This document shows positions 2,638 to 18,407 of a stretch of DNA of 64,000 bases, one piece after another. Below the pieces are notes generated by a model. That model did not search any database. It saw nothing but the letters and a program-made list of their open reading frames with translations, and was not told the DNA's origin. Source of the DNA: Malania oleifera. Taxonomy: Eukaryota; Streptophyta; Magnoliopsida; Santalales; Ximeniaceae. Numbering within the stretch: position 1 is the first letter of the stretch; each line of letters opens with the position of its first letter. The stretch spans positions 29,597,682-29,661,681 of the forward strand of contig NC_080417.1 of the NCBI RefSeq assembly GCF_029873635.1, written 5' to 3'. Made by a program: the position numbers and the translations under genes.

Positions 2638-3827
2638 TGGTGGAACTGTTGCTAGTGGGTATTAAATTGTATTGTTCACCACAGCGTTAGATATTTAAAC
2701 CAGAGGAGTTCCTCGCTTGGTCTGTGACTGCAAATGATTCAATCTGATTGAAATGTGAATTGTTAGTGTGAGGGACAATGCAGATGAGCGATGCTGGTTT
2801 TGGCCCTTGGGTATTGCCTTTGGGAGCCATGTTGAGAGCTCCAAATGGAGATATTTTTTTGCTTAAAAGATGTTTTAAGGTCTCCCAGTTAATTGGTTTC
2901 TACAATTTTGATTCTTTGCTTCACCTTTTATCTTTGATTTTAGTGTTGAACATGCCCATTGCAGTGAGCCTGCTACTTGCATTATACAACATTCCTGTGG
3001 TGTTACTGGTGTATGCCTTTTGAAACTTGAAACAAATAGTTTTTTGCTGTGTTTCCATTGTAGACTTTAGCTCTCATGTCTTGAACAAGCAATGGGTTCC
3101 ATTTCCTCTGCAGTTTATTGTCTTGTTAACGTACTGTTGCCATTAGTGGAACTGTGGGTTCATGACTTCATTCATGAATGCAAAAAATCTAATTCCAGAA
3201 TGACTTTGTGTATAGAATTAAGTTCACAACAGTAACAGTTGAGGTAATGTTCATGAAATATAATCATGAAAAATGCTGGTTATAGAAGAAGAACATACTT
3301 TCTCTATTAATCACACTCCTGAATGATTCTCAATCTAGCCCGTGCATTTTATAAATGTTTAGAATCCATTCATGCAAGTCTATAATTGATATGACTTCAA
3401 AATTGTTCATTGGTGATTATTTGGGTTACATTTGTGAATTGTCATAGATGAATTTGGAATCAACTTTAAACAGTTTCACTTGGTGAGTTACTGAGCTTTA
3501 TTTATCAAATTGTTTAAAATTGTTCTCTTTTCCTACAATGATTGATTTCGATCTGCATATATTAATACATCTTGAACATTGCATGCTAGACAATTTATCT
3601 CAAGCTTTGGACGAATTCAGTAATGTATTCTGAATGGGCACTCAAAAAAACCTGAAACAGAGGAACACAATTAGAAATTTTTTTGCATAAATTGCATTAT
3701 ATATATTCAAGATTGGTTGGTTGAGATTGATCTCTTCAATTGTTTTTTTTTTTTTTAGGGTGGGTTTGGGTTTGTTTTGTGTTGTTCAGACTGTTTGGTC
3801 TTGGATGTTAACTAGGAGCTCATATTT
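2638..3827. other. 3' flank of the PPR gene
   Basis: AT-rich DNA that must hold the PPR 3' untranslated region and then intergenic sequence. No polyadenylation site can be placed with confidence and no second gene is recognised. From about 3800 begins a unit (GGAGCTCATATTTG followed by CTTATTATTGGCAG) that recurs in diverged tandem form at 15848-16410. Confidence 0.5.
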
Positions 3828-3995
3828 GTCTTTGTTTTTGCTTTTGTTTATTAGTTTTTTTTTTCTCACTTATTATTGGCAGTTAGGTCAACTCCGTTTG
3901 GTTGCTATGAAACCTATGACAATGAATTGCAATTTTTGTTTACATCTTCATATTTTTTGAATAAAAAAAGTGAACTGAATAGTAGTTGTAATGAT
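3828..3995 (+). repeat. Host segment duplicated on both sides of the Tat element (copy 1)
   Basis: About 165 bp of host sequence beginning GTCTTTGTTTTTGC and ending AGTTGTAATGAT, present again at 15684-15847. By eye there are about 7 substitutions and 2 small length differences between copies. It directly abuts integrase sequence at 3996, with a few bases of shared sequence (ATCA on the complementary strand) at the join. A normal retroelement insertion gives 5 bp, so this is not an ordinary target-site duplication. Confidence 0.85.
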
Positions 3996-6560
3996 GTCCA
4001 CACGAAGCGTGTAATGTTCCGCTCTGTTATGGTGGCTAGAGGTTCAGCCTCTACCCACTTAGTAAAATAATTTATTGCTACCAATAAAAACTTTCTTTGA
4101 CCTGTCGCCTGCGGTAGAGGTCCAAGGATGTCTATTCCCCACTGTGCGAAGGGGCAGTGACTGGTTAAAGGGGAGAGTAAATTAGAGGGTACGTGTGGTA
4201 CAGTTGCACATCGTTGACATCTGTCGCATTTCTTGACGAGTAAAACGCCTGTCGCATGGCTTTGTGGGCTAGGGCCCTACTGGTAAGGTGGTTTCCACAC
4301 ACTCCTTCGTGGATTTCTCTTAGTACGTATGTCCCTTCCTCATCGTTTAGACAAAGAAGGTAGGGCAATGTTAGAGATCGTCTGTACAGCTCCCGACCTA
4401 TCAGCGTATACCTTGCTGCTTTTCTTCTCACTTTCCGAGCTTCCTTGTTGTCTTGTGGTAAGGATTCGTTCTGGAGAAATAGGAACAAAGGCGCCCTCCA
4501 ATAATTCTTGTTGATTTCGGACTCTACTGAGTTAACTTTGTCTTCCTCGTATGATGATTTCCCTATTCGCTCTAGATAAATAGCTTCTTTCCATTTCGCC
4601 TCGGTCGCTGAGGCCAATTTCGTAAGTGCGTCGGCCTTTTTGTTTTCTGCCCTTGGTACGTGTTCTATATCGAATCGAACAAATGCTTTCTCGTATTCTT
4701 GGGTCTTAACAAGATATTTCTTCATTCTTGGATCCCTAGTTTCAAATTTTCCTTTCAGCTGCTCTACCACTAGTTGAGAATCACTCAATACCTTGATCTG
4801 TGCCACCACTAATACTTCTGCCAAGTGCAGGCCTGCTAGCAAAGCTTCATACTCCACATCGTTGTTGGTTGCTGTGAACTCAAGTTTCAGTGCGAAAAGA
4901 GTTTCAGTGACTTTAGGGGCCGAAAGGATGAATCCAGCTCCCCCTCCAGTAGCGTTAGATGACCCATCAACATGCAGTGTCCATACGTCTGGCTTAGTGG
5001 ATGAGTCGGAGAACCTTTCTGCTGTAAAATCAGCGAGCACCTGGGCCTTGACCGCGGGCCTTGGTTGATATTGTATGTCGAACTCACTTAACTCAATTGA
5101 CCATTTTGTCATCCTTCCCGAACTCTCCGGTCGCTGTAGAATTTGTCTCATCGGTAGGTTTGTTAACACAATTACCTTGTGGGCCTGAAAGTAGGGCCTC
5201 AATTTTCGTGCTGCACAAACGATGGAGAACGCGGCTTTTTTCGGCTTTGCAGTAGTTCTTTTCAGCTCTGCTGAGCACCTTGCTAGTGTAATAGATGGGT
5301 TGATGCTTCTTGCCTTCTTCCCGAACCAGGACAGAGCTGACGACACTTTCTGTGGATGCTATATAAAGGTAAAGGTCTTCCACATTCTTTGCTTTGGTTA
5401 AGAGAGGAGGGGATCCGAGGTACTGCTTAAGCAATTCAAAGGCTTTGGCATGCTCTTTCTCCCATTCGAATCCTCCCTTAAACCCTAGTGCTTTGAAGAA
5501 TGGTAAGCCTTTGTCCCCTGAGCAGGAGACAAATCTGCCGAGGGAGGCTATCCTCCCTGTCAAAACTTGGATCTCCTTTTTGATCTGTGGGGCCTCCATC
5601 TCCAGTAGCACTTTTATTTTATCTGGGTTTGCTTCTATACCTTTACGAGTCCACATAAAGCTCAGGAATTTTCCTACAGAAACACCGAACACACACTTCG
5701 ATGGGTTCAGTTTCATGTGGTACCGGTGAAGGAGTTCGAATGTTTCTCTCAAGTCTTTGCAATGTTGTCCTATTACCAAGCTTTTTACCAGCATGTCGTC
5801 CACGCACGCCTCCATTGTTTTTCCGAACTGATCTTTAAAGATCCTGTTCACCAATCTCTGATATGTGGCTCCTGCATTTTTTAGCCCGAAAGGCATCACC
5901 CGGTAACAATACAAACCCCTTTCGGTGATGAAAGGTGTTTTTTCTTCGTCTGCTCGACTCATGGGAATTTGGTTGTATCCTGAGTAAGCATCCATGAAGC
6001 TGAGGAGCTCATGCGCAGAGGTTGAATCCACTAGTTGGTCGATTCGGGGAAGAGGGAAATTGTCTTTTGGGCACGCCTTATTCAAGTCAGTAAAGTCTAT
6101 GCAAGTGCGCCATTTTCCATTTGACTTTCTTACTAGAATCACGTTGCTCAACCACTCCGGGTAGTCTACCTCCCTGACGAAGTTGGCTTGTACTAGCTTC
6201 GTCACTTCCTCATCGATTATTCTGATTCGCTCCATTGTGAAGTTTCTTTTTTTCTGCTTCACCAAGTTGGTGGTTGGGGTCGACCTGCAACCTGTGCTCT
6301 ATCACTGTAGGGTCGATGCCGGGCATGTCCGCGGCCGACCATGCAAATAAATCAGCGAATTCGTCCAAGAGTTCGCTTAGCTCCGCTTTCAAGGTGTCGG
6401 GCAAGTGATTCCTGATCTGTATACTTCTCTCCTGGTGGCCGTTCAGTGGTATGTGCTTGACATCTTCATCTACTGTACTGATCTGGGAATACTTTCCTCT
6501 TACTTCTAGATCTTCCACCGTTAGAGTTTCTCTAGCCTCCATCTTCCCTTTCAGGGCCAT
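3996..6560 (-). mobile_element. Tat pol region: RT, RNase H, archaeal-type RNase H, integrase part
   Basis: Fossil pol sequence on the minus strand. Reverse transcriptase lies at about 5350-6265 (ACPKDNFPLPRID, FMDAYSGYNQI and the catalytic-loop version VDDMLVK). The connection/RNase H segment is at about 5080-5350, the Tat-typical archaeal-like RNase H at about 4620-4985 (starting WTLHVDGSS, with NNDVEYEALLAGL), the integrase zinc-binding part at about 4200-4330 and the start of the integrase core at 3996-4180. The part 6266-6560 is the linker between protease and RT. Broken relic. Confidence 0.85.
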
Positions 6561-6584
6561 TACATAGCAACTCTGAGCAGCGGC

Positions 6585-8310
6585 CTAATCTCCATTGACA
6601 AATCTTATCCCTTGTGGTGTAGGGAATTTGACTTTGAGGTGGTACGTTGACGTTACCGCCCGAACTGTGTTAAGGAAAGGGCGATCCAAGATGACATTGT
6701 ATATCGAAGGTCGGTCGACCACCAAGAATTCTGTCAATGTCGTTACCTGCTGCGGAGTCGTCCCTATTGTCACCGGTAACGTGATTATACCCAAGGGGTG
6801 AACAGTGTCTCCCCTGAATCCTACCAAGGGGGTCGAGACCGACTTGAGTTGTTTCTTGTCGATCTTCATTCCAACCAGAACTGACCAGAACATGATGTTG
6901 GCCGAGCTCCCGTTGTCTATCAGTATGTGTTTGACCATATAATTGGCCACTAGTAAGGAGAGCGCTAATGCGTCATCATGTGGATGCTGCACCCCTTCTT
7001 CGTCTCCGCTGTCAAAGGTTATAACGTCATCTTTTCTGTTTGGCTTGCTACTAGTTTCCCCCTTCTCCATCGTCAGCACTTGTTTAGCATATCTTTTGCG
7101 TGCACTCCTGTTATCACCTCCACTAGCGGATCCTCTAAAGATCACCGCAATTTTCCCTATGGCCTGCTCTTCCTTCTCTTTTGCGCCATGCCTCTTCTGT
7201 TCGATTGGTTCCCTTTGTGGATTTTCTTTCTTTATAAACTTTGACAGATGTCCCCTTCTTATTAGGATTTCGATTTCTTTCCTCAACTGAATGCATTCTT
7301 CTGTGTCGTGGCCGTGATCCCTATGGAATGCGCAGAACTTGGACATGTTCCGCTTATGTAGAAGCGTTCGCATAGGTTCAGACCACGAGATGTAGTCCTT
7401 CTTTTTGATCTACATCTGTAACTCTAAGTGCAGTACATTTAGGGGTGTGTAGGTGGAGAACTTGTTGTGCTGTCCTCTCATCTTTGAACCTGTCTGCAGC
7501 GCACTAGTCTCATGCCTTTTTACAGATCTATAGGAGTCTCCAGATTCTCTGCTATTGTTTCTCCTTTTCCGCTCTATGCGATTTCCTCTCGTATCCATCA
7601 TCTCCTCCAGGTTTATGTATTTCTCTGCTCTGATCATTAACTTCCCCATGTCCACCGGTGGTTTTTTCCCTAGGGAGTATAAGAAGCTTCGGAGTTGAAG
7701 AGCCGTTGTCAAGGCGGTCAAAGCTACCCCCATGTCTAAGTTGCGGATTTCTAGGGTCGCTGTGTTGAACCGATGCATGAAGTTCTTTAGAGTTTCCCGC
7801 TCCCTTTGCACCATACTCATGAGATAGCCTGTTGTTTTAGCAACTCTCCGGCTACTAAGGAAGTGGCCGGTGAATATTTATTCCATCACTTGGAAGGAAC
7901 CAATAGATCTTGGTCGAAGAGTTCGATACCAGTCTCTGGTAGCACCCTTAAGGGTGGTTGCAAAAGCTCGACACATGATGGCGTTGGGAGCCCCTTGCAA
8001 CTGCATCAACATTTTGAAATTATCCAGATGATCAATGGGGTCAGACAAACCTTCGTATCTTTCAAAAGTGGGCATCTTGAATCCACTTGACAATGGGGCC
8101 TCCATGATTTCTTTGTTTAATGGAGGCTCTGAGGACCTTAGGGATGCTTCCCCATAGTAGGGTCTGGTTCTGCCCTCCTTTATCATTTTCTCTATATGCT
8201 CTATTTTCTTTATTCTTTCCTCAAGCTCCGTGGATCTTTGTTGGTTGACGTCCACGCTATTTGCATCTTCTACCTTCTTATTGAGATGAGTTTTCTCATC
8301 TTTCTCCACT
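6585..8310 (-). mobile_element. Tat gag and protease region
   Basis: Fossil gag-protease sequence. The gag core (retrotrans_gag type) is at about 7810-8100, with a GLSDPIDHL segment and a TRDWY motif. A Cys/His knuckle-like segment (CAFHRDHGHDTEEC) is at about 7300-7345. The aspartic protease is at about 6600-6950, with active-site region DNGSSANI and the RPFLN motif further on. Family assignment rests on these motifs and on the neighbouring pol. Broken in more than one place. Confidence 0.8.
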
Positions 8311-8591
8311 GGTTTGTTAGCTTGCTTGTCGGCGCTGGGATTCTCTTGCGGTTGGGGGAGGACATGCCCTTCTTAACTCTTTTGTTGTAAGAGTTGGTTG
8401 ACCATGTCCTTCATTTCCTTCTGGAAAGTAAGGAACTCCTTCCTGCTGACACCTGATGACTCTGCGGGCGTGGATTGGATGGATTGGGATGGTTCTTTTG
8501 TAGCAGGGAAGGAGGTAGAATTGCGTGAAGTCGGCTTTGCTGGAATGTCGAAAGTCGAAAGCAAGATAATATTGCCTCTTAAAAGCAGGTT

Positions 8592-8609
8592 CCCACAAAC
8601 GGCGCCAAC
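8592..8609 (-). other. Tat primer-binding site
   Basis: On the minus strand TTGGCGCCGTTTGTGGGA directly follows the LTR end CCCGCAACA. The TGGCGCCGT core is a form commonly seen next to Tat LTRs. It fixes the LTR boundary at 8610 and the orientation of the left half. Confidence 0.75.
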
Positions 8610-9159
8610 TGTTGCGGGATAAAAATAGTAGGGATGCTTCTTCAACTCCCGTGGACCTGAAAGAGGAAGAGAAGAAAGGCTTGGAGGACCCGGGGTGTAC
8701 TCCGAGGGATCTCTCCGATGCCTAAGTAAAAGGAACGCTTTTAGGGAGGCTAAACGCAACAGTAGAATGGTGTTTTGTCACTTACCTTTGCCTTTTCTCC
8801 AAATCTCTTCTTATAGGGGCTTGAGTTGACCGTCGGTTGGCTTGCACTTATTGCACAAGGGCGTGAATCGCTCTCCAGCAATAAGTGCGTACGTCTATTA
8901 CTCGGTTATTAAGGGCGTTGGCGTGGATCTCTCCTCCTCTTTATTGGGTCGGAGCTAATCACTCGTCCGAATGTCAGACCCGGAGAAAGTGCGAGATAGG
9001 CGTTGACCTGTCCTCATTAGCTAGATTATTATGGGTATATCGGTTGCCCCCCCTTCAGTTTCAAATTTCTAGATAGAATTTTGAATAATGGTTTTGTCTG
9101 CATCTTTCCCTTTAAAGGGTTTAACGCTCCATCTTGTTCCTCCCTTTTTTTTTTTTTTT

Positions 9160-9720
9160 CTTTTAGCTGAACAGCTCGTACCGAACTGTTTTGCCGGGCT
9201 GCTCGTGCCGAGCTGTTTAGCCGAGCTCCTCGTGCCAAGTTGCCGAGCTGTTTTGGCGAGCCGTTTTGCCGAGTTGCTTGTGCCGAGCTATTAGCCGAGC
9301 TCTTTGTGCTGAGCTGTTTTGCTGCGCTCCTCGTGCCGAGCTGTTTAGCCAAGCTTCTCGGCCCGAGCTGTTTCGTCTGAGCTCTTTCAAGAGTTGCTTG
9401 GGCCGAGCTATTTCGTCCGAGCTCTTTGAAGAATTGCTCGGGCCGAGCTGTTTTGTCCGAGCTCTTTGAAGAGTTACTCAGGCCGAGCTATTTCGTCCAA
9501 ACTCTTTGAAGAGTTGCTCGGGTTGAGCTGTTTCGTCCGAGCTCTTTGAAGAGTTGCTCGGGCCGAGCTATTTCGTCCGAACTCTTTGAAGAATTGCTCG
9601 GGCCGAGCTGTTTTGCTGAACAGTTTGTGCTGAGCTGTTTGTTTCGAGCTCTTTGAAGAGTTGCTCGTGCCGAGCTGCTTCGTCCGAGCTCTTTGAAGAG
9701 TTGCTTGGGCCGAGCTGTTG
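9160..9720. repeat. Tandem repeat field 1 in Tat LTR (CCGAGCT family)
   Basis: About 10 or more copies of a unit of roughly 40-45 bp built from CCGAGCT and CTTTGAAGAGTTGCT words. The word GAGCTCGG/CCGAGCTC is self-complementary, so each unit can form small hairpins. The long open stretches on both strands are by-products of the repeat and are not genes. The inverted partner field is at about 14455-15115. Confidence 0.8.
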
Positions 9721-10010
9721 CAAGGAGGGAATTTGACCGAGCTGTCCGACCTTTTCCCTGGAGTGAAGCTTGGACGACCTGTCCCATGGAAGGAATTTTT
9801 CCGACCTGTACCACGAAGGGAACTTGGCCGAGTTGTCCAACCTGCACATTGAGAGTAGATATACCGACCTATTCGACCTGCTTTATGAAGGGGATTTGTC
9901 AATCTGTCCCATGGAGGGAAATTGGCAGAGCTCTCCGACTCTATGAAGGGAATTAGTCCGACCTGTCCCATGGAGGGACATTGGCCGAGGTATCCGACCT
10001 GCACGGCTGT
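9721..10010. repeat. Tandem repeat field 2 in Tat LTR (TCCGACCTG family)
   Basis: Irregular repeats of roughly 35-40 bp with the words CCGACCTGTCCCATGG and GAAGGGAATT. It sits between fields 1 and 3 and has an inverted partner at about 14170-14450. Confidence 0.65.
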
Positions 10011-10400
10011 TTGGCCTTACAAGTCATGCTCGTTATTTGGGCCTTTGCGTCTACTGAGCCGTCTCTTCTTGGCAGTTCTGGCCTCACGAGTCGTGCTCGT
10101 CAGTTTGGCCTGTCCGCCTGATGAGTTGTGCTCATCTGTTGGGTTGTTCTGGCCTCACGAGTCGTGCTCGTCAGTTTGGCCTATCCGCCTGATGAGTCGT
10201 GCTCATCTGTTCGATTGGTTCGGCCTGACGAGTTGTTCTCGTCAATTTGGCCTATCCGCCTGATGAGTCGTGCTCATCTGTTGGGTTGTCCTGGCCTTAC
10301 GAGTCGTGCTTGTCAGTTTGTGAGTCGTGCTCATCTGCTGGGCCGTTCTGGTCATATGAGTCGTGCTCGTCTTTTGGTTGTTTCACCTTTCCGAGGCGTC
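10011..10400. repeat. Tandem repeat field 3 in Tat LTR (CACGAGTCGTGCTCGT family)
   Basis: About five to six copies of a unit near 65-70 bp with the words CACGAGTCGTGCTCGT and GATGAGTCGTGCTCATCTG. ACGAGTCGT and GATGAG...CTCATC are near-palindromic. The inverted partner is at about 13808-14160. Confidence 0.75.
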
Positions 10401-11011
10401 GTTGCACGCTTCTGTCCTGCGAGATATAAATAAAAGCAGGTTTTAAATGCGTTCTACCTTGGGAAGTGGGTTGGAGGAAACGTTCTCATTTATGGTCATC
10501 CGTCTAACATTGTGTCCGAGGTGATGTGGTCTTTCCGAGGCAGCGTTTGTCCTTTAGAAGTTGCGTCTGTGCATTTGTCAAAGATTTTTTGTGTCCTTTT
10601 CCTCCCTCGAGACGCAATCCTTTTTGTAAATGAAAATTCTTGAGATTCCCGCCATAGGGATTCGTGCCCTCCTCTCTTTATAAAGGCCAGTGGACTCTTT
10701 CATTCCGCACTCATCTTCATTCTGAGAGGACTCCTTCTTTCTCTTCTTTTCTTCATTCCACAAGTCCCCCATTTGGTGTTAGGTACGCTTTCCCTCTCTA
10801 TAGCATTTTTGTTTTGTTGTTCTTCATGTTCTTCATTGTTCTTGCATTAACTTTGTATGTTTGATCTTTTCTTGTAAGATAGCCTAGCTGTTTGTGTGTG
10901 AAATTTTACTGTCTTGATCTGTCTTGGCATCTTTTCCTCTTTGTTTTTGCTGGTGCTTGCTCGTTTGATCCTTAGGTATAGGTATTATTTCGTTCAGGCT
11001 TTATTTTTCCT

Positions 11012-11593
11012 ATGGAGTCTTCCTCACAGCCTTTAAGGGTTCCTACTACAGTTCGGAGCGCTCATTGTGACCTCACCTCCTCCGACCTGCAGAATGTTCA
11101 TTATTTTTTTGCCATACCATCGAATATTACTGTTAGGTTGTCATCTGCTTCCGAGTCAGCTCTTGATCAAAGCTCCGAGGAGCTCTGCCTCTATACCGAT
11201 TATCTAGATTTGGGTCTTAGGCTCCCTTTTCCCTCTTTTGTCTCTAACGTATTACGTTTTTACCGCATAGCACCTTCCCAACTTGTCCCGAACTCTTATC
11301 TTTTGCTCACCTGTTTTGCTGTGCTTCTGCTCCGCTTGGGCCATCAACCTACAGTTCCTTTTTTTAGAAGTTGTTTCCAAATGCGATCCCATTCTGCGGA
11401 GAAGGAGTTATTTTATTTCAACTCTCTACCAGGCTATAAACTTTTTTCATCAGGCAGTTCTTCCATCCATAACTGGAAGACTCGTTACTTATTTGCCTCG
11501 GGAGAGTTGAATTACACGGGCTCTTTTGTCTGGTCTTCTCCTCTTGATGGTAACGTTGTCTATCTCTTTTCCACCTTTTGCAGGGCTTATTAG
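11012..11593 (+). mobile_element. Extra Tat reading frame, antisense to gag-pol (left copy)
   Basis: A 193-codon open stretch lying outside the LTR and reading opposite to its element's gag-pol. It encodes a globular protein with a conserved-looking block (YLDLGLRLPFPSFV, then RFYRIAPSQLVPNS) that resembles the plant 'putative gypsy type transposon' domain (Pfam Transposase_28, by recall). Extra antisense frames between integrase and the 3' LTR are known in Tat elements; their function is not established. An inverted second copy is at 12666-13214, about 4-5% different at DNA level. Treated as part of the fossil element. Confidence 0.7.
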
Positions 11594-11814
11594 TAGGTTA
11601 TCTGCAGACTCATTTTTTTCCTTTCACTCCTTTTTCCTTTGTAGTTCGGGTGCGCCATCTCCTTCCCAGACTTTCCCCCGAAGAGCAGGTCATCCTGAAA
11701 AAACTTCGTGTTCTTGGTGAACAGGGTATTATCCCTCATGAGGAGCTGTTCCAAGAGCGTGTCCTCATGTAGTGGGGGATCAGCCCCGTTTCCTCAAGTC
11801 ATTCATCGCCCCTG

Positions 11815-11818
<4 letters not shown>

Positions 11819-11845
<27 letters not shown>
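11819..11845. repeat. (TA)n microsatellite near the palindrome centre, left arm
   Basis: Pure TA run followed by TGTGTATG. The corresponding point in the right arm (12313-12379) carries a long (AC)n run next to (TA)n, so the two arms have changed length independently. Confidence 0.9.
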
Positions 11846-11849
<4 letters not shown>

Positions 11850-11905
11850 ATGTTCGGATATTGTCTCTACTGTTGGTGTTTTTACTCATTTTCTCTTTTA
11901 TCCTT

Positions 11906-12261
11906 TTAGTGAAATAATCTATTGCTATCACTAAGTGGGTAGAGGCTGAACCTCTAGCCACCATAACAGAGCGGAACATTATACGCTTCGTGTGGACATC
12001 AGTGGTTTGCCGTTACGGCATCCCCTGAGCGATAGTTACAGACCACGAGAAGCAGTTCGACAACGACCGCTTCAAAAAGTTTTGTTCAGACCTATCTATT
12101 AAGCTCCTCTTCGCGTCAGTGGCGCACCCCCAGAGCAATGGACAGGTAGAGAACATGAATCGGATGATACTGCATGGACTGAGAACGCGACTCGAATCCA
12201 TGCAAGGTAGATGGGCAGAGGAACTCCCTTCCCTTATATGGGTGTACCATACCATATCTGC
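11906..12261 (+). mobile_element. Spacer of the palindrome: Tat integrase core fragment
   Basis: Integrase core on the plus strand from about 11932, with the motifs WVEAEPLATI, AHPQSNGQVENMNR and GRWAEELPSLIWVYHT. The first 70 or so bases of this fragment are the inverted counterpart of 3996-4065, so parts of the same integrase stretch are present in both orientations about 8 kb apart. It precedes the right-hand extra frame and LTR in the normal element order. Confidence 0.8.
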
Positions 12262-12312
12262 AAGGATAAAAGAGAAAAGGAGTAAAAACACCAACAGTAG
12301 AGACAATATCCG

Positions 12313-12378
<66 letters not shown>

Positions 12379-12379
12379 A
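12313..12379. repeat. (AC)n(TA)n microsatellite, right arm
   Basis: (AC)n from about 12313 to 12358 followed by (TA)n to about 12379, the expanded counterpart of 11819-11845. It gives spurious Thr-His and Cys-Val open stretches that should not be annotated. Confidence 0.95.
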
Positions 12380-12665
12380 TCAGGGGCGGGGAATGACTTG
12401 AGGAAACAGGGCTGATCCCCCACTGCACGAGGACACGCTCTTGGAGCAGCTCCTCATGAGGGATAATACCCTGTTCACCGAGGACACGAAGTTCTTTCAG
12501 GATGGTCTACTCTTCAGGGGAAAGTCTGGAAAGGAGATGGCGCACCCGAACTACAAAGGAAAAAAGGGTGAAAGGAAAAAAGATGAGTCAGCGGATAACC
12601 TACTAGTAAGCCCTGTAAAAGAGGGTGGAAAAGAGATAGACAACGTTACCATCAAAAGGAGAAGA

Positions 12666-13214
12666 TCAGACAAAAGAGCCCGTGTAATTCAACTCTCCCG
12701 AGGCAAAGAAGTAACGAGTCTTCCAGTTATGGATGGAAGAACTGCCTGGTGAAAAAAGTTTATAGCCTAATAGAGAGTTGAAATAATATAGCTCATTCTC
12801 CGCAGAATGGGATCGCATTTGGAAACAACTTCTAAAAAAAGGAACTGTAGGCTGATGGCCCAAGTGGAGCAGAAGCACGTCAAAACAAGTGAGCGAAAGA
12901 TAAGAGTTCGGGACAAGTTGGGAAGGTACTATGCGGTAAAAACGTAATATGTTAGAGACAAAAGAGGGAAAAGGAAGCCTAAGACCCAAATCTAGATAAT
13001 CGGTATAGAGGCAGAGCTCCTCGGAGTTTTGATCAAGAGCTGACTCGGAAGCAGATGACAACCTAACAGTAATATTCGATGGTATGGCAAAAAAATAATG
13101 AACATTCTGCAGGCCGGAGGAGGTAAGGTCACAACGAGCGCTCCGAATTGTAGTAGGAACCTTTAAAGGTAGTGAGGAAGACTGCATAGGGAAAACAAAG
13201 CCTGAACGAAACAA
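12666..13214 (-). mobile_element. Extra Tat reading frame, inverted right copy
   Basis: A 182-codon open stretch, homologous over almost its whole length to 11012-11593 but on the other strand. Here too it is antisense to its own half's integrase, as expected for an antisense frame between integrase and the 3' LTR. The N-terminal few residues differ between copies. Confidence 0.7.
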
Positions 13215-13436
13215 TACCTATATCTAAGGATCAAACGAGCAAGCACCAGCAAAAACAAAGAGGAAAAGATGCCAATACAGAACAAGACAGTAAAATTTCA
13301 CACACAAATAGCTAGGCCATCTTACAAGAAAAGATCAAACATACAAAGTTAACGCAAGAACAACGAAGAACATGAAGAACAACAAAACAAAAATGCTATA
13401 GAGAGGGAAAGCGTACCTAACACCAAATGGGGGACT

Positions 13437-15683
13437 TGGGGAATGAAGAAGAGAAGAGAAAGGAGTCCTCTCAGAATGAAGGCGAGTACGGAATGAAAGA
13501 GTCCATTGACCTTTATAAAGAGAGGGCACGAATCCCTGTGGCGCGAATCTCAAGAATTTCCATTTACAAAAAGGAATGCGTCTCGAGGGAGGAAAAGGAC
13601 ACAGAAAATCTCTGACAAATGCACAGACGCGGCTTCCCAAGGATGAACGTTGCCTCAGAAAGACCACATCACCTCGGACACAACGTTAGATGGATGACCA
13701 TAAATGAGAACGTTTCCTCCAACCCACTTCCCAAGATAGAACGCATTTAAAACCTACTTTTATTTATCTCTGGCAGGACGAAAGCGTGCAACGACGCCTC
13801 AGAAAGGTGAAACAACCAAAAGACGAGCACGACTCGTATGGCCAGAACGGCCCAGCAGATGAGCACGACTCGTAAGGCCAGGACAACCCAACAGATGAGC
13901 ACGACTCATTAGGCGGATAGGCCAAATTGACGAGAACGACTCGTCAGGCCGGAACAACCCAACAGATGAGCATGACTCATTAGGAGGATAGACCAAACTG
14001 ACGAACACGACTCGTGAGGTCAGAACAACCCAACAGATGAGCACGACTCATCAGGCGGACGGGCCAAACTGACGAGCACGACTCGTGAGGCCAGAACTGC
14101 CAAGCAGAGGAGCATGACTCAGTAGACGCAAAGGCCCAAATAACGAGCATGACTTGTAACGCCAAACAGCCGTGCAGGTCGGATACCTCGGCCAATGTCC
14201 CTCCATGGGACAGGTCAGACTAATTCCCTTCATGGAGTCGGAGAGCTCCGCTAATTTCCCTCAATGGGACAGATTGACAAATCCCTTTCATGAAGCAGGT
14301 CGAACAGATCGGTATATCTACTCTCAACGTGCAGGTCGGACAACTCGGCCAGGTTCCCTTCATGGTATAGGTCGGAAAAATTCCTTCCATGGGACAGGTC
14401 GTCCAACTTCACTCCAGGGAAAAGGTTGGACAGCTCGGTCAAATTCCCTCCTTGCAACAGCTCGGAAAAACAGCTCGGCCCGAGCAACTCTTCAAAGAGC
14501 TCGGATGAAACAGCTCGGCCCGAGCATCTCTTCAAAGAGCTCGGACAAAACAGCTCGGCACAAACTGTTCAACAAAACAGCTCGGCCCGAGCAATTCTTC
14601 AAAGAGCTCGAACGAAATAGCTCAGCCCAAGCAACTCTTTAAAGAGCTCGGACGAAGCAGCTCGGCACGAACAGTTCGGCAAAACAGCTCAGCCTGAGCA
14701 ACTTTTCAAAGAGTTCGGACGAGACAGCTCGGCTCGAGCAACTCTTCAAAGAGCTCGGACGAAACAGCTCGACCTGAGCAACTCTTCAAAGAGCTCGGAC
14801 GAAGCAGCTCGGCACGAGCAACTCTTCAAAGAGCTCGGCCCGAGCGCCCAAGCAACTCTTCAAGGAGCTCGGACGAAACAGCTCGGCTCGAGCAACTCTT
14901 CAAAGAGTTCGGACAAAACAGCTCGGCACAAACAGCTCGGCCTGAGCAATTCTTCAAAGAGCTCGGACGAAATAGCTCGACCCAAGCAACTCTTGAAAGA
15001 GCTCGGACGAAACAACTCGGCCTGAGAAGCTTGGCTAAACAGCTTGGCACGAAGAGCTCGGCAAAACGGCTCGGCAGCTCGGCACGAGGAGCTCGGCAAA
15101 ATAGCTCGGTACGAGCTGCTCAGCTGAAAAAAAAAAAAAAAAAAAGAAGGGAGGAACAAGATGGAGCGGTAAACCCTCTAAAGGGAAAGATGCAGACAAA
15201 ACCATTATTCAAAATTCTATTTAGAAATTTGAAACTGAATGGGGGACAGCTGATATGCCCATAATAATCTAGCTAATGAGGACAAGTCAACGCCTATCTC
15301 GCACTTTCTCCGGATCTGACATTCGAATGAGTGATTAGCTCCGACCCAATAAAGAGGAGGAGAGATCCACGCCAACGCCCTTAATAACCGAGTAATAGAC
15401 GCACGCACTTATTGCTAGAGAGCGATTCACGCCCTTATGCAATAAGTGCGAGCCAACCGACGGTCAACTCAAGCCCCTATAAGAAGGGATTTGGAGAAAA
15501 GACAAAGGTACGTGACAAAACACCATTCTACTGTTACGTTTAGCCTCCCCAAAAGCGTTCCTCTTACTTAGGCATCGGAGAGATTCCCCGGAGTATACCC
15601 CGGGTCCTCCAAGCCTTTCTTCTCTTCCTCTTTCAGGTCCACGGGAGTCGAAGGAGCATCCCTACTATTTTTATCCCGCAACA
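13437..15683 (+). repeat. Tat LTR, right copy
   Basis: Plus-strand LTR of about 2.25 kb beginning TGGGGAATGAAG after the purine-rich AAATGGGGGACT and ending CCCGCAACA at 15683, directly followed by host DNA. It carries the inverted partners of the three tandem fields at about 13808-14160, 14170-14450 and 14455-15115. A TATA-like TTTATAAAG lies near 13512. Open stretches on both strands inside are repeat artefacts. Confidence 0.8.
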
Positions 15684-15847
15684 GTCTTTGTTTTTGCTTT
15701 TGTTTATTAGTTTTTTTTCTCACTTATTATTGGCAGTTAGGTCAACTCCGTTTGGTTGCTATGAAACCCATGACAATGAATTGCAATTTTTGTTTACATC
15801 TTTTTTTTTTAATTAAAAAAAGTGAACTGAACAGTAGTTGTAATGAT
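15684..15847 (+). repeat. Host segment duplicated on both sides of the Tat element (copy 2)
   Basis: Second copy of 3828-3995. Host sequence continues from it without a break into 15848 onward, so this copy is joined to the native downstream DNA while copy 1 is joined to the native upstream DNA. Confidence 0.85.
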
Positions 15848-16410
15848 TTATTTCATGTTCTTCTGCAACCAAATGATGCTGTTTTGTGTGGATTTATTTG
15901 ATGATTTGGGTCTCAAATTTTTCTTTTTTCCTTTTCCCTACTTTTTAGTATCAGAAATGAAGTAGACTCCATTTGGTTGCTGCTGGGAAATGGAGGAAAA
16001 CCAATTCAATTACTTTTTTCTTTGTTTTTTTCCCCAACTGATAAATAATTGAAGAACATGAAGTGGAAAGAAATTTAGGACTTGTTTAATAGTTTGGAGC
16101 TCATATTTGTTTTTAACTTCTTATTATTGGAAGGAGTAAATTCTGTTTGGCTGTTGAGAAAACCAAAGAAAATGAATTCAATTTTTGCTTCTTTTGCCTC
16201 TTTCTACCCGACAAAGAATCAAAGAACATGAACTGCAAAGGTATGTGGGATTTGTTTGATAATATCCTTTTTCTTTCGTTCTCTTTTCTCACATGTTACT
16301 ATTGCAAATTAAGTGGACTCCAGGTTACTGTTGAGAAAATTGAGGGAAATGAATTGCCAATAAAACTGAGGAAAATGAAGAACACAGACTCGATAAAGAA
16401 TGTAGTAGGA
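15848..16410 (+). repeat. Diverged tandem repeats of host intergenic sequence
   Basis: Two to three further, strongly diverged units of the sequence seen at 3800-3995. Each carries an ACTCC-TTTGGTTGCTG-like segment, a GAAAATGAATT-like segment and a GAAGAACATGAA-like segment (near 15960-16060, 16135-16230 and 16310-16385). The period is roughly 160-190 bp. Non-coding. Confidence 0.5.
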
Positions 16411-18407
16411 AAATGAAGAACACAGACTCAAAAAGAATGTAGTTAAGAGCAGTCGGTTATCTGTCTGTCCTTTATGCCATGGCTAGCAGTGGCTGGACTG
16501 TAATGCCTAACTCATGTTTTTCAACCGTGATGTAATTTTTATGAATTGCTGGCATTTGTGTTCTTGTTCTTGTTTTTGTTTTATTACTATTATCAGTTTT
16601 TTTTTTCTTTTTTTAAACAAAAATGTTGGTCTCAGGAATGGGAGGCCTTCACTGAAGGAAGCTCAACCTACATTTTAAAATTTATTGTCATGTAGAGGTA
16701 TTAGTGATTTTGGATGTATTAAAGGGTATTTTTTTCTAAGAGAAAAAACAGTAATATTAAAGAATATGTTAGGAGCATTGGTTCACAAGATTCCTAAAAA
16801 AAAAATTTACAGTAAAAGAACATGATCGATGACATACATGGTTACTCATTGGATTAAGGGGGAGTTTGGCTCTCCTCATTGTCCATTTTAAAAGTAAAAA
16901 TTAGGTCAGATGTGTTTGATAAATAGCTTTTTTAGCTTTTAAAAGTTAATTTTATCTTTTCTTAAATGAGCTTTTAAAAGTTATAAATTTAAAATTTTTA
17001 AAAATTGAAAGCTAACTTTTTTTGACAAACTATTTAATTCTATTGTTCTTAATTTTTTTTTTAGATACTATAAAACTATCAATATATTAATTATATTTTC
17101 TAAAAATATATATATATATATATATATCTATTTTAGTCATTTTAACTTTTTTACCAAACATATAAAGTTCTTTTTTCTTTGTAATAACTCTTCTAAAGGT
17201 TGGACAAAAATTTTTTATAACATAAAAAAGAAGTCACAAGGAAGTCAAACTAAGCCCTAGTTTCTTTTCTAAGCAGTATTATTAAATTCGTTATTTGGTA
17301 AATTTTATCGCTAGACTAGACTGGTGTATTGGAAAAAAATGATTTCCTTTTGTAGTTCACATCTTATACGTCTTTTCCTTAAAAAAAAAAATGCAATTAT
17401 CTTGGGTTTATTATCCAAAATCTTAATATATAGTTCACATCAACAAGTATTATTTGTATTTTCTTTTTAAAAAGTAGTATTAACACTTAATTTGTTTCTA
17501 TATAATGCGATGTAGAATCTATTTCCTCTTTTCTTATTTTTCAGTCTTTTTTTGTTTCCAAAGTCAAATTTTAAATTTATCATTTAATGCATTAAAAAAA
17601 ATACATATAGACCGTTATTAATATTTTTGGAATGTCAATGGCACCTTCTATCCACATTTTCTTCAAACGTTTATTAAATGAAATGTGTGATAAAATTTTA
17701 GAATGCCATGTAATAATGGAGGATGATGATAAATTGTAATAGTATATCTCTTTATGCTTCAACATTTGAAATAATAAAATAATAAAAGTGAGAATATAAA
17801 GTGTAAAATACTAGTTATTATATTGACATATAGTACATTGGGACGGGTTTGACAGGCCAAATTATGGATCTCAAATTTAGATTTATTTGAATTTAAATAA
17901 AATTTAAAGTAATTTAATATTATTTTTATCTAAAATTTTTCAAACTTATATTTAAAATCTAACTTCAATCTCCTAAAATCCTAAATACACAATTAATATA
18001 TTTTATGACAAAAAAAAAAAAAAAAAAAAGACCGGCAATGTATAAACAATGAGACCCTTAACTTGAAAACACAAAATTTTCCAATATATTAGAGTCGAGC
18101 AAGTTGACTTTAAAACTAATTTTAATTGCTTAAATTTATTTACAATTATGAAAAAAATATTTGCCATATCAAAAAGTGTAAACTCACAATGAATCCAAAA
18201 TTTTTGGAATATCCAAAAAATCCAAATCATTGAAGCATCAAAACTAATTCTCCAAAGTTGAAAATTCAATACTCGAAAATTGATGGGTGCGCATGACGCC
18301 TGTGCATATTCCATGCCAAGTGCATTGAAGAACCTTTCATAAAGCTTAAAATCCTCTTCCCCTCTCCCTTTCCCTATATTCTTCAATTGTAAAAAACTGC
18401 TACTCAA
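16411..18407. other. AT-rich intergenic DNA
   Basis: Apart from the possible MITE at 16855-17265, a (TA)n run at about 17106-17128 and poly(T) or poly(A) runs, nothing is recognised. The open stretch at 18003-18440 on the minus strand has no recognisable protein character. The last 100 bases (about 18340-18407), pyrimidine-rich with a TATA-like CCTATATTC, are probably the old promoter and leader of the BAG-type pseudogene. Confidence 0.5.
16855..17265. mobile_element. Possible MITE with imperfect terminal inverted repeats
   Basis: An AT-rich block whose left end (AAGGGGGAGTTTGGCTCT) and the complement of its right end (AGGGCTTAGTTTGACTT) are similar imperfect inverted repeats. The interior holds short inverted AGCTTTTAAAAGTT-type words. 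Size and form fit a non-autonomous DNA transposon. I see no clear target-site duplication, so family and exact edges are uncertain. Confidence 0.35.

Follow-up and report, generated by a model that had tools for sequence, protein, structure and literature searches.

A stretch of 64,000 nucleotides of the Malania oleifera genome (C1:29597682-29661681 in an assembly of 1.49 Gb in 510 contigs; hereafter the window) carries two partial long terminal repeat (LTR) retroelements of the Tat group placed head to head over 11.7 kb, neither half being complete. Comparison of the first 20 kb of the window with itself by BLASTN showed that positions 8608-11905 are repeated in inverted orientation at 15685-12262 (E = 0, identity 88.0% with gaps counted), in agreement with the original prediction, made from the letters of the window, which had placed the arms at 8610-11905 and 12262-15683. 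The arms had been described as an LTR with additional sequence: the LTR is present and occupies only 433 bp, and most of each arm (2.9 kb), by comparison with a two-LTR relative, corresponds to the 3' region between integrase (INT) and the 3' LTR. The spacer between the arms (11906-12261) has the predicted 356 bp and is mainly INT, as had been proposed, except that its first 22 bp are INT in reversed orientation and that the bases from 12252 onwards belong to the 3' region. The INT sequence at 3992-4063 matches 12001-11930 in inverted orientation with 71 of 72 positions identical, and the start of the plus-strand INT fragment is indeed an inverted copy of 3996 to about 4065. The LTRs are inverted and the flanking duplication measures 164-168 bp, in place of the two direct LTRs and 5-bp target duplication of an intact insertion; the inverted halves also differ from the same-orientation units of tandem or shared-LTR elements. 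Since both halves are incomplete, the right one lacks 1.36 kb and internal sequence flanks the single LTR of the left one, the structure is something other than an intact element with one inverted LTR. The copy is probably inert, since pol is spread over several reading frames, an in-frame stop interrupts the INT fragment and INT is truncated at 3996.

The joins are known from the assembly, which leaves room for a mirror artefact or a chimeric contig. Substitutions alone separate the arms at 238 of 3270 aligned sites (7.3%), with 17 indel events; by part, they number 66/1168, 28/353, 115/1196 in the tandem repeats, 9/119 and 20/434 in the LTR. The two copies of the host duplication described below also differ (5 substitutions in 164, two indel events), and the junctions carry microhomologies of the repair type. 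An artefact is for these reasons highly improbable, and the argument that the arms are too different for a simple mirror holds on the full alignment.

The minus-strand open reading frames (ORFs) at 4165-6298 code for reverse transcriptase (RT), RNase H and a second RNase H in that order (Pfam RVT_1, RT_RNaseH_2, RT_RNaseH and RVT_3), the second RNase H matching RVT_3 with E = 7.4e-17. No Pfam match was obtained for the three ORFs upstream of RT, and gag and protease are named by position. In a relative on contig C4 (L013, at 88.03 Mb) INT comes next in the order and was recognised by Integrase_H2C2 (E = 1.2e-11) and weakly by rve (E = 0.0044); the INT fragment of the window gave a weak rve match under the Pfam cut-off (E = 0.05). 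Each arm also contains an antisense ORF matching Transposase_28 (Table 1). Tat/Retand elements are marked by a further RNase H (aRH) placed between the first one and INT (PMC6317226), and Retand by an antisense Transposase_28 ORF between pol and the 3' LTR (PMC11963269). On these two marks the element, judged from its sequence, is a member of the Retand clade of Tat (Ty3/gypsy), which narrows the Tat membership of the original prediction.

On the minus strand, the left half runs through 3' region, LTR, the dinucleotide GT, TGGCGCC, gag, pol and INT down to 3996, so the predicted course through primer site, gag and pol was recovered from the ORFs, the Pfam matches to RT and RNase H and a colinear relative, with gag placed by position. 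We take TGGCGCC, 2 bp past the LTR, to be the primer-binding site (PBS) from its position and its known form. Internal sequence thus lies on both sides of a single LTR, as it would in a one-LTR circle or a tandem. None of the eight distinct relatives read past the end of their 3' LTR had a PBS there (17 loci examined, giving 11 rows, of which 3 repeat a copy). On the plus strand, the right half begins with the INT fragment, continues after a 1,361-bp deletion (measured against L013) with the 3' region and the LTR, and ends at CA-GT.

The ordinary anatomy of the family was read from relatives. Compared with the window, the copy at C1:27874964-27887543 sets the LTR length at 433 bp (TGATAT...CAACA), the left-half LTR of the window beginning with C. 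A two-LTR relative at C11:48.28 Mb carries the 5-bp duplication AGATG on the two flanks of its LTRs; the C1 and C4 copies (at C1:27.88 and C4:88.03 Mb; L044, L045, L013 and L046) sit in (TA)n microsatellites, where a duplication cannot be read cleanly. A motif of the 3' region occurs at 81 places in the genome, of which 45 were paired with an upstream INT place and 36 were not, a split obtained with 100 listed INT places of the 195 counted plus 8 more. The spacing from INT to the motif was 1,295-1,711 bp at 41 of the 45 paired places, 8 bp in the window and 1,041, 3,652 and 5,100 bp at the others. The 3,652-bp case (L014, C1:27880293-27883933) exceeds the usual 1.39 kb by about 2.26 kb. One of the 36 places without a listed INT is the left arm of the window, and four others that were read have normal spacing. 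A deletion subfamily as the source of the join between INT and 3' region was not supported, the 8-bp spacing being found only in the window among the 45 paired places and the four others that were read.

The whole structure is bracketed by a direct repeat of host sequence, 3828-3995 versus 15684-15847 (94.6%, E = 1.3e-69 in the same self-comparison). A paralogous locus, C8:50647892-50648855, matches window 2992-3995 (89.5%) and 15684-15861 (91.7%) and contains the duplicated stretch once and uninterrupted. As the paralogue holds the stretch only once, the pre-insertion sequence most likely had one copy, of which the insertion would have duplicated 164-168 bp; this argument is weakened by the homology ending about 14 bp into the right flank. 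The segment shared with C8, about 1 kb at window 2992-3995, has abrupt ends on both sides. These flanks bear on the possibility of a recombination in the chromosome, by inversion or deletion between neighbours, of two elements that had inserted separately. The 7.3% divergence of the arms, which exceeds that of the host duplication when the tandem repeats are kept (p = 0.04), would suit two elements, and two sources are compatible with the near absence of private shared sites. Independent insertions are, however, expected to leave unlike flanks, whereas here the pair is enclosed in a single host duplication and the C8 paralogue runs through that place without a break, as one insertion predicts; we regard such a recombination as very unlikely.

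Both host junctions were read to the base. At the left join, inside INT, element and host have 4 bp (TGAT) in common, and at the right join, at the LTR terminus, 2 bp (GT), while the deletion join of the right half has 3 bp (CCA); shared bases as short as GT can also arise by chance. Microhomology at both host junctions with no 5-bp duplication outside them, as seen here, is expected of end-joining capture. The right end consists of exactly the LTR and GT, which fits the end of a complementary DNA (cDNA), yet GT is host sequence as well. The same terminus can be read in another way: integrase would first have inserted an element on the plus strand in the ordinary manner (duplication GTCTT), and a later break or replication error in a chromosome lacking the insert would have led to copying from it with template switches, the copying returning through the real LTR-host junction so that 168 bp were duplicated and the 5' LTR was lost. 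This would account for the exact LTR terminus followed by host GTCTT (CA/GTCTT), and switching explains the microhomologies and the central fold-back. It demands, though, two events at almost the same place, the left half would still call for a template in tandem or circular form, and no trace of a 5' LTR was seen in the left flank around 3828. We consider it unlikely.

At the centre, read on the minus strand, INT descends to position 2931 of L013, turns, rises from 2909 to 2937 and leaps into the 3' region at 4629. A fold-back, TTAGTGA/TCACTAA, with a 15-nt loop forms the turn. When the inverted central junction pointed out in the original prediction was searched in the genome, its 65 bp (11878-11942) had one match in the 1.49-Gb assembly, itself, and among the 81 places of the 3'-region motif the only neighbouring pair in opposite orientation within 60 kb is that of the window. 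A microinversion common to three other copies, hinted at by longer matches, was dismissed once their sequences were read. The arms start in the 3' region at L013 positions 4619 and 4629, 10 bp apart. A central polypurine tract as the cause of these near-equal starts was rejected, the purine-rich motif being conserved no better than its surroundings in an alignment of nine copies, one of which ends before the motif. An inversion circle formed by autointegration should, as we reason it, join an internal site to an LTR end and leave a few-bp duplication at that site. It was rejected, because INT is connected to the 3' region at a point 2.9 kb short of the LTR start, with an overlap of 72 bp.

The fold-back also admits a palindrome made as one self-primed, hairpin-like product of reverse transcription and joined to the host as a single molecule, which is a sub-case of capture, so that the confidence placed in the two overlaps. 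One molecule would then hold both the one-LTR order and the cDNA-like end, the arms start within 10 bp of each other, and the two LTRs are sisters in the LTR tree, although with weak support (88/75). The near-equal arm starts are better accounted for by one folded-back molecule that later lost part of its centre than by two separate captures, the loss being itself assumed: the asymmetric spacer requires that about 0.33 kb was deleted there. In a tree of 842 bp of the 3' region, which is star-like, the left arm is equally close to the right arm and to two other copies, and private shared sites are almost absent. The hairpin product is a tentative and rather doubtful alternative.

The divergence data were examined for the age and number of sources. 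The two LTRs of the window differ at 20/433 positions, inside the range of the 5'/3' LTR pairs of three relatives (13/433, 22/432 and 21/433). Without the tandem-repeat part, the arms do not differ significantly from the host duplication (123/2074 versus 5/164, Fisher p = 0.16). Private mutations shared by the arms gave no proof of one source, two alignments containing one exclusive site each. These comparisons allow, without proving it, one old event near the time of the family burst.

We propose that the structure is, with moderate confidence, the fossil of an integrase-independent capture of Retand DNA during the repair of a chromosome break, a reading based on the 168-bp duplication of the flanks, the shared bases at the joins, a right end resembling that of a cDNA and the one-LTR order. 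The host chromosome would have broken with staggered ends about 165 bp apart, whose filling in duplicated the stretch, and the break ends would have been joined to element DNA by microhomology, the left one inside INT through 4 bp and the right one at the LTR terminus through 2 bp. What was inserted would already have been aberrant, one half having one-LTR-circle (or tandem) order and the other a 3' cDNA-like end, and the halves would have been joined head to head via the INT fold-back, the sequence adjoining INT being lost. Our observations comprise the order of the parts, the host duplication, the single-copy paralogue, the junction homologies and the once-found centre; an extrachromosomal substrate and a single event behind all joins are what we infer from them. 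The cause had been given as a strand switch in repair or reverse transcription, or as two elements joined; this was the right family of explanations, left undecided, within which the evidence favours capture at a host break. The host duplication of 168/164 bp, the one-LTR order with the right-half deletion, and the junction homologies with the fold-back had not figured in it.

Several points weigh against capture. The GT of the right end may equally be host, which leaves the cDNA signature unproven; arm starts within 10 bp are not well explained by separate breaks; an overhang of 165 bp is long; the homology of the C8 paralogue extends merely about 14 bp into the right flank; and the joins are read from assembly sequence alone. 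Keeping the tandem-repeat part puts the divergence of the arms above that of the host duplication (238/3270 against 5/164; p = 0.04 by Fisher's test), tandem repeats aligning less surely; this comparison leans to arms that were unlike already at insertion, or that mutate more or align worse. The arms share one exclusive site in 1,559 columns and one in 561, where the pair L011/L015 has 23, and such near absence of private shared sites does not demonstrate a single source molecule. Our confidence in capture is independent of the single-source assumption and so is unchanged by it.

Table 1 Parts of the head-to-head structure and of its host flanks, in window positions
Feature	Position	Strand	Evidence or remark
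Host target duplication, left copy, 168 bp	3828..3995	.	Last 4 bases TGAT (3992-3995) also element sequence
Internal Retand-like part (PBS, gag, protease region, RT, RNase H, second RNase H, INT start)	3996..8607	-	ORFs, Pfam, colinearity with relative C1:27874964-27887543; abrupt end inside INT at 3996
Left-half single LTR	8610..9042	-	Then GT (2 bp) and TGGCGCC; 3'-region sequence precedes
Left palindrome arm, INT-to-3' LTR region with 40-bp and 71-bp tandem repeats	9043..11905	-	
Antisense ORF, Transposase_28, left arm	10982..11593	+	PF04195, E = 2.7e-14
22-bp INT piece, orientation opposite to rest of spacer	11906..11927	-	TTAGTGA/TCACTAA fold-back, 15-nt loop
INT fragment with in-frame stop, up to deletion junction	11928..12254	+	11930-12001 is inverted copy of 3992-4063
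1,361-bp deletion junction, INT to 3' region, microhomology CCA	12252..12254	+	Relative to C4:88.03 Mb copy
Right-half 3' region with tandem repeats	12252..15250	+	Right palindrome arm from 12262
Antisense ORF, Transposase_28, right arm	12666..13217	-	PF04195, E = 1.1e-12
Right-half LTR, complete to terminal CA	15251..15683	+	
GT, the bases between LTR and PBS in left half, equally first two host-copy bases	15684..15685	+	2-bp microhomology
Host target duplication, right copy, 164 bp	15684..15847	.	Direct repeat of 3828-3995

Elsewhere in the window, a long ORF at 1342-2637, 1.2 kb upstream of the host duplication, codes for a pentatricopeptide-repeat (PPR) protein. A short dispersed repeat at 16850-17240 has more than 30 genomic matches, mostly of 72-80%, and is perhaps a miniature transposon. 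The part from 32000 to 64000 is a dense nest of other repeats, with inverted pairs of 66-81% and direct pairs of 87-89% (33760-35860/47617-49756, 37654-38982/44388-45681 and 53942-54830/60278-61154), and the GC skew changes sign near 50 kb.

The ingredients of a repair-captured head-to-head retroelement are all known, and their combination looks uncommon. Ty1 cDNA is reported to be captured at yeast breaks, 40 of 56 wild-type 3'-LTR inserts carrying bases found only in cDNA (preprint PMC10802722), fold-back inversions occur at breaks (PMC11724301) and rice insertions with duplications have been ascribed to asymmetrical nicks (review PMC7407515). Integrase-independent entry of LTR retrotransposons has been worked out in yeast, the plant discussion coming mainly from tandem arrays (PMC12786077, PMC11899658). 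It is conceivable, though we think it unlikely, that the insert is the trace of a single self-primed palindromic reverse-transcription product end-joined into the chromosome, and that plant retrotransposons use such an inverted, integrase-independent route recurrently; one strand would have folded back in INT with the other side still a one-LTR intermediate. A second outward-facing LTR pair of the same superfamily, 8.4 kb apart, was found at C5:106198345(-)/106206760(+), extending to 106207217 (among 100 listed of 144 places), and, judged from the LTR end positions alone, may be a second head-to-head case. By title, no plant case of inverted LTRs or head-to-head elements was found in the literature searched, a partial coverage for which titles are a weak test, and absence from print is not claimed. 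A plant fossil with a long filled-in duplication, microhomology joins, a possible cDNA terminus and a fold-back provides a signature that can be searched genome-wide, and annotation that expects direct LTRs and 5-bp duplications probably overlooks such copies.

Compared with known systems, as far as the available parts of their descriptions go, the structure shares with Retand elements the position of the second RNase H, the antisense Transposase_28 ORF, the tandem repeats between pol and 3' LTR, an LTR inside the published range of 315-1,194 bp and, at one relative, the 5-bp duplication; it differs in consisting of two partial elements head to head with a duplication of 164-168 bp (PMC11963269, PMC6317226). 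Complex and tandem LTR elements likewise have internal sequence on both sides of one LTR, but are same-strand tandems, with 5-bp duplications for those formed by template switch, whereas the window structure is inverted and has a long duplication (PMC1950507, PMC11899658). The inverted two-LTR circle of autointegration can also set two LTRs of one element inverted (PMC4751563), the reasoned model joining an internal site to an LTR end where the window joins INT to the 3' region. Fold-back inversions and templated insertions have in common with the centre a short inverted piece at a small hairpin and junction homology of 0-5 bp; those reported are local inversions of 2 to about 150 bp, while the fold-back here joins kilobase arms (PMC11724301). 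Yeast Ty1 cDNA capture likewise joins pieces of the element at breaks, with a hotspot in the 3' LTR region, and its cDNA-only bases at the LTR end may have a counterpart in the terminal GT of the right half; the structure differs in being, instead of a fragment, an insert of 11.7 kb that is composite and inverted and lies in a plant (PMC10802722).

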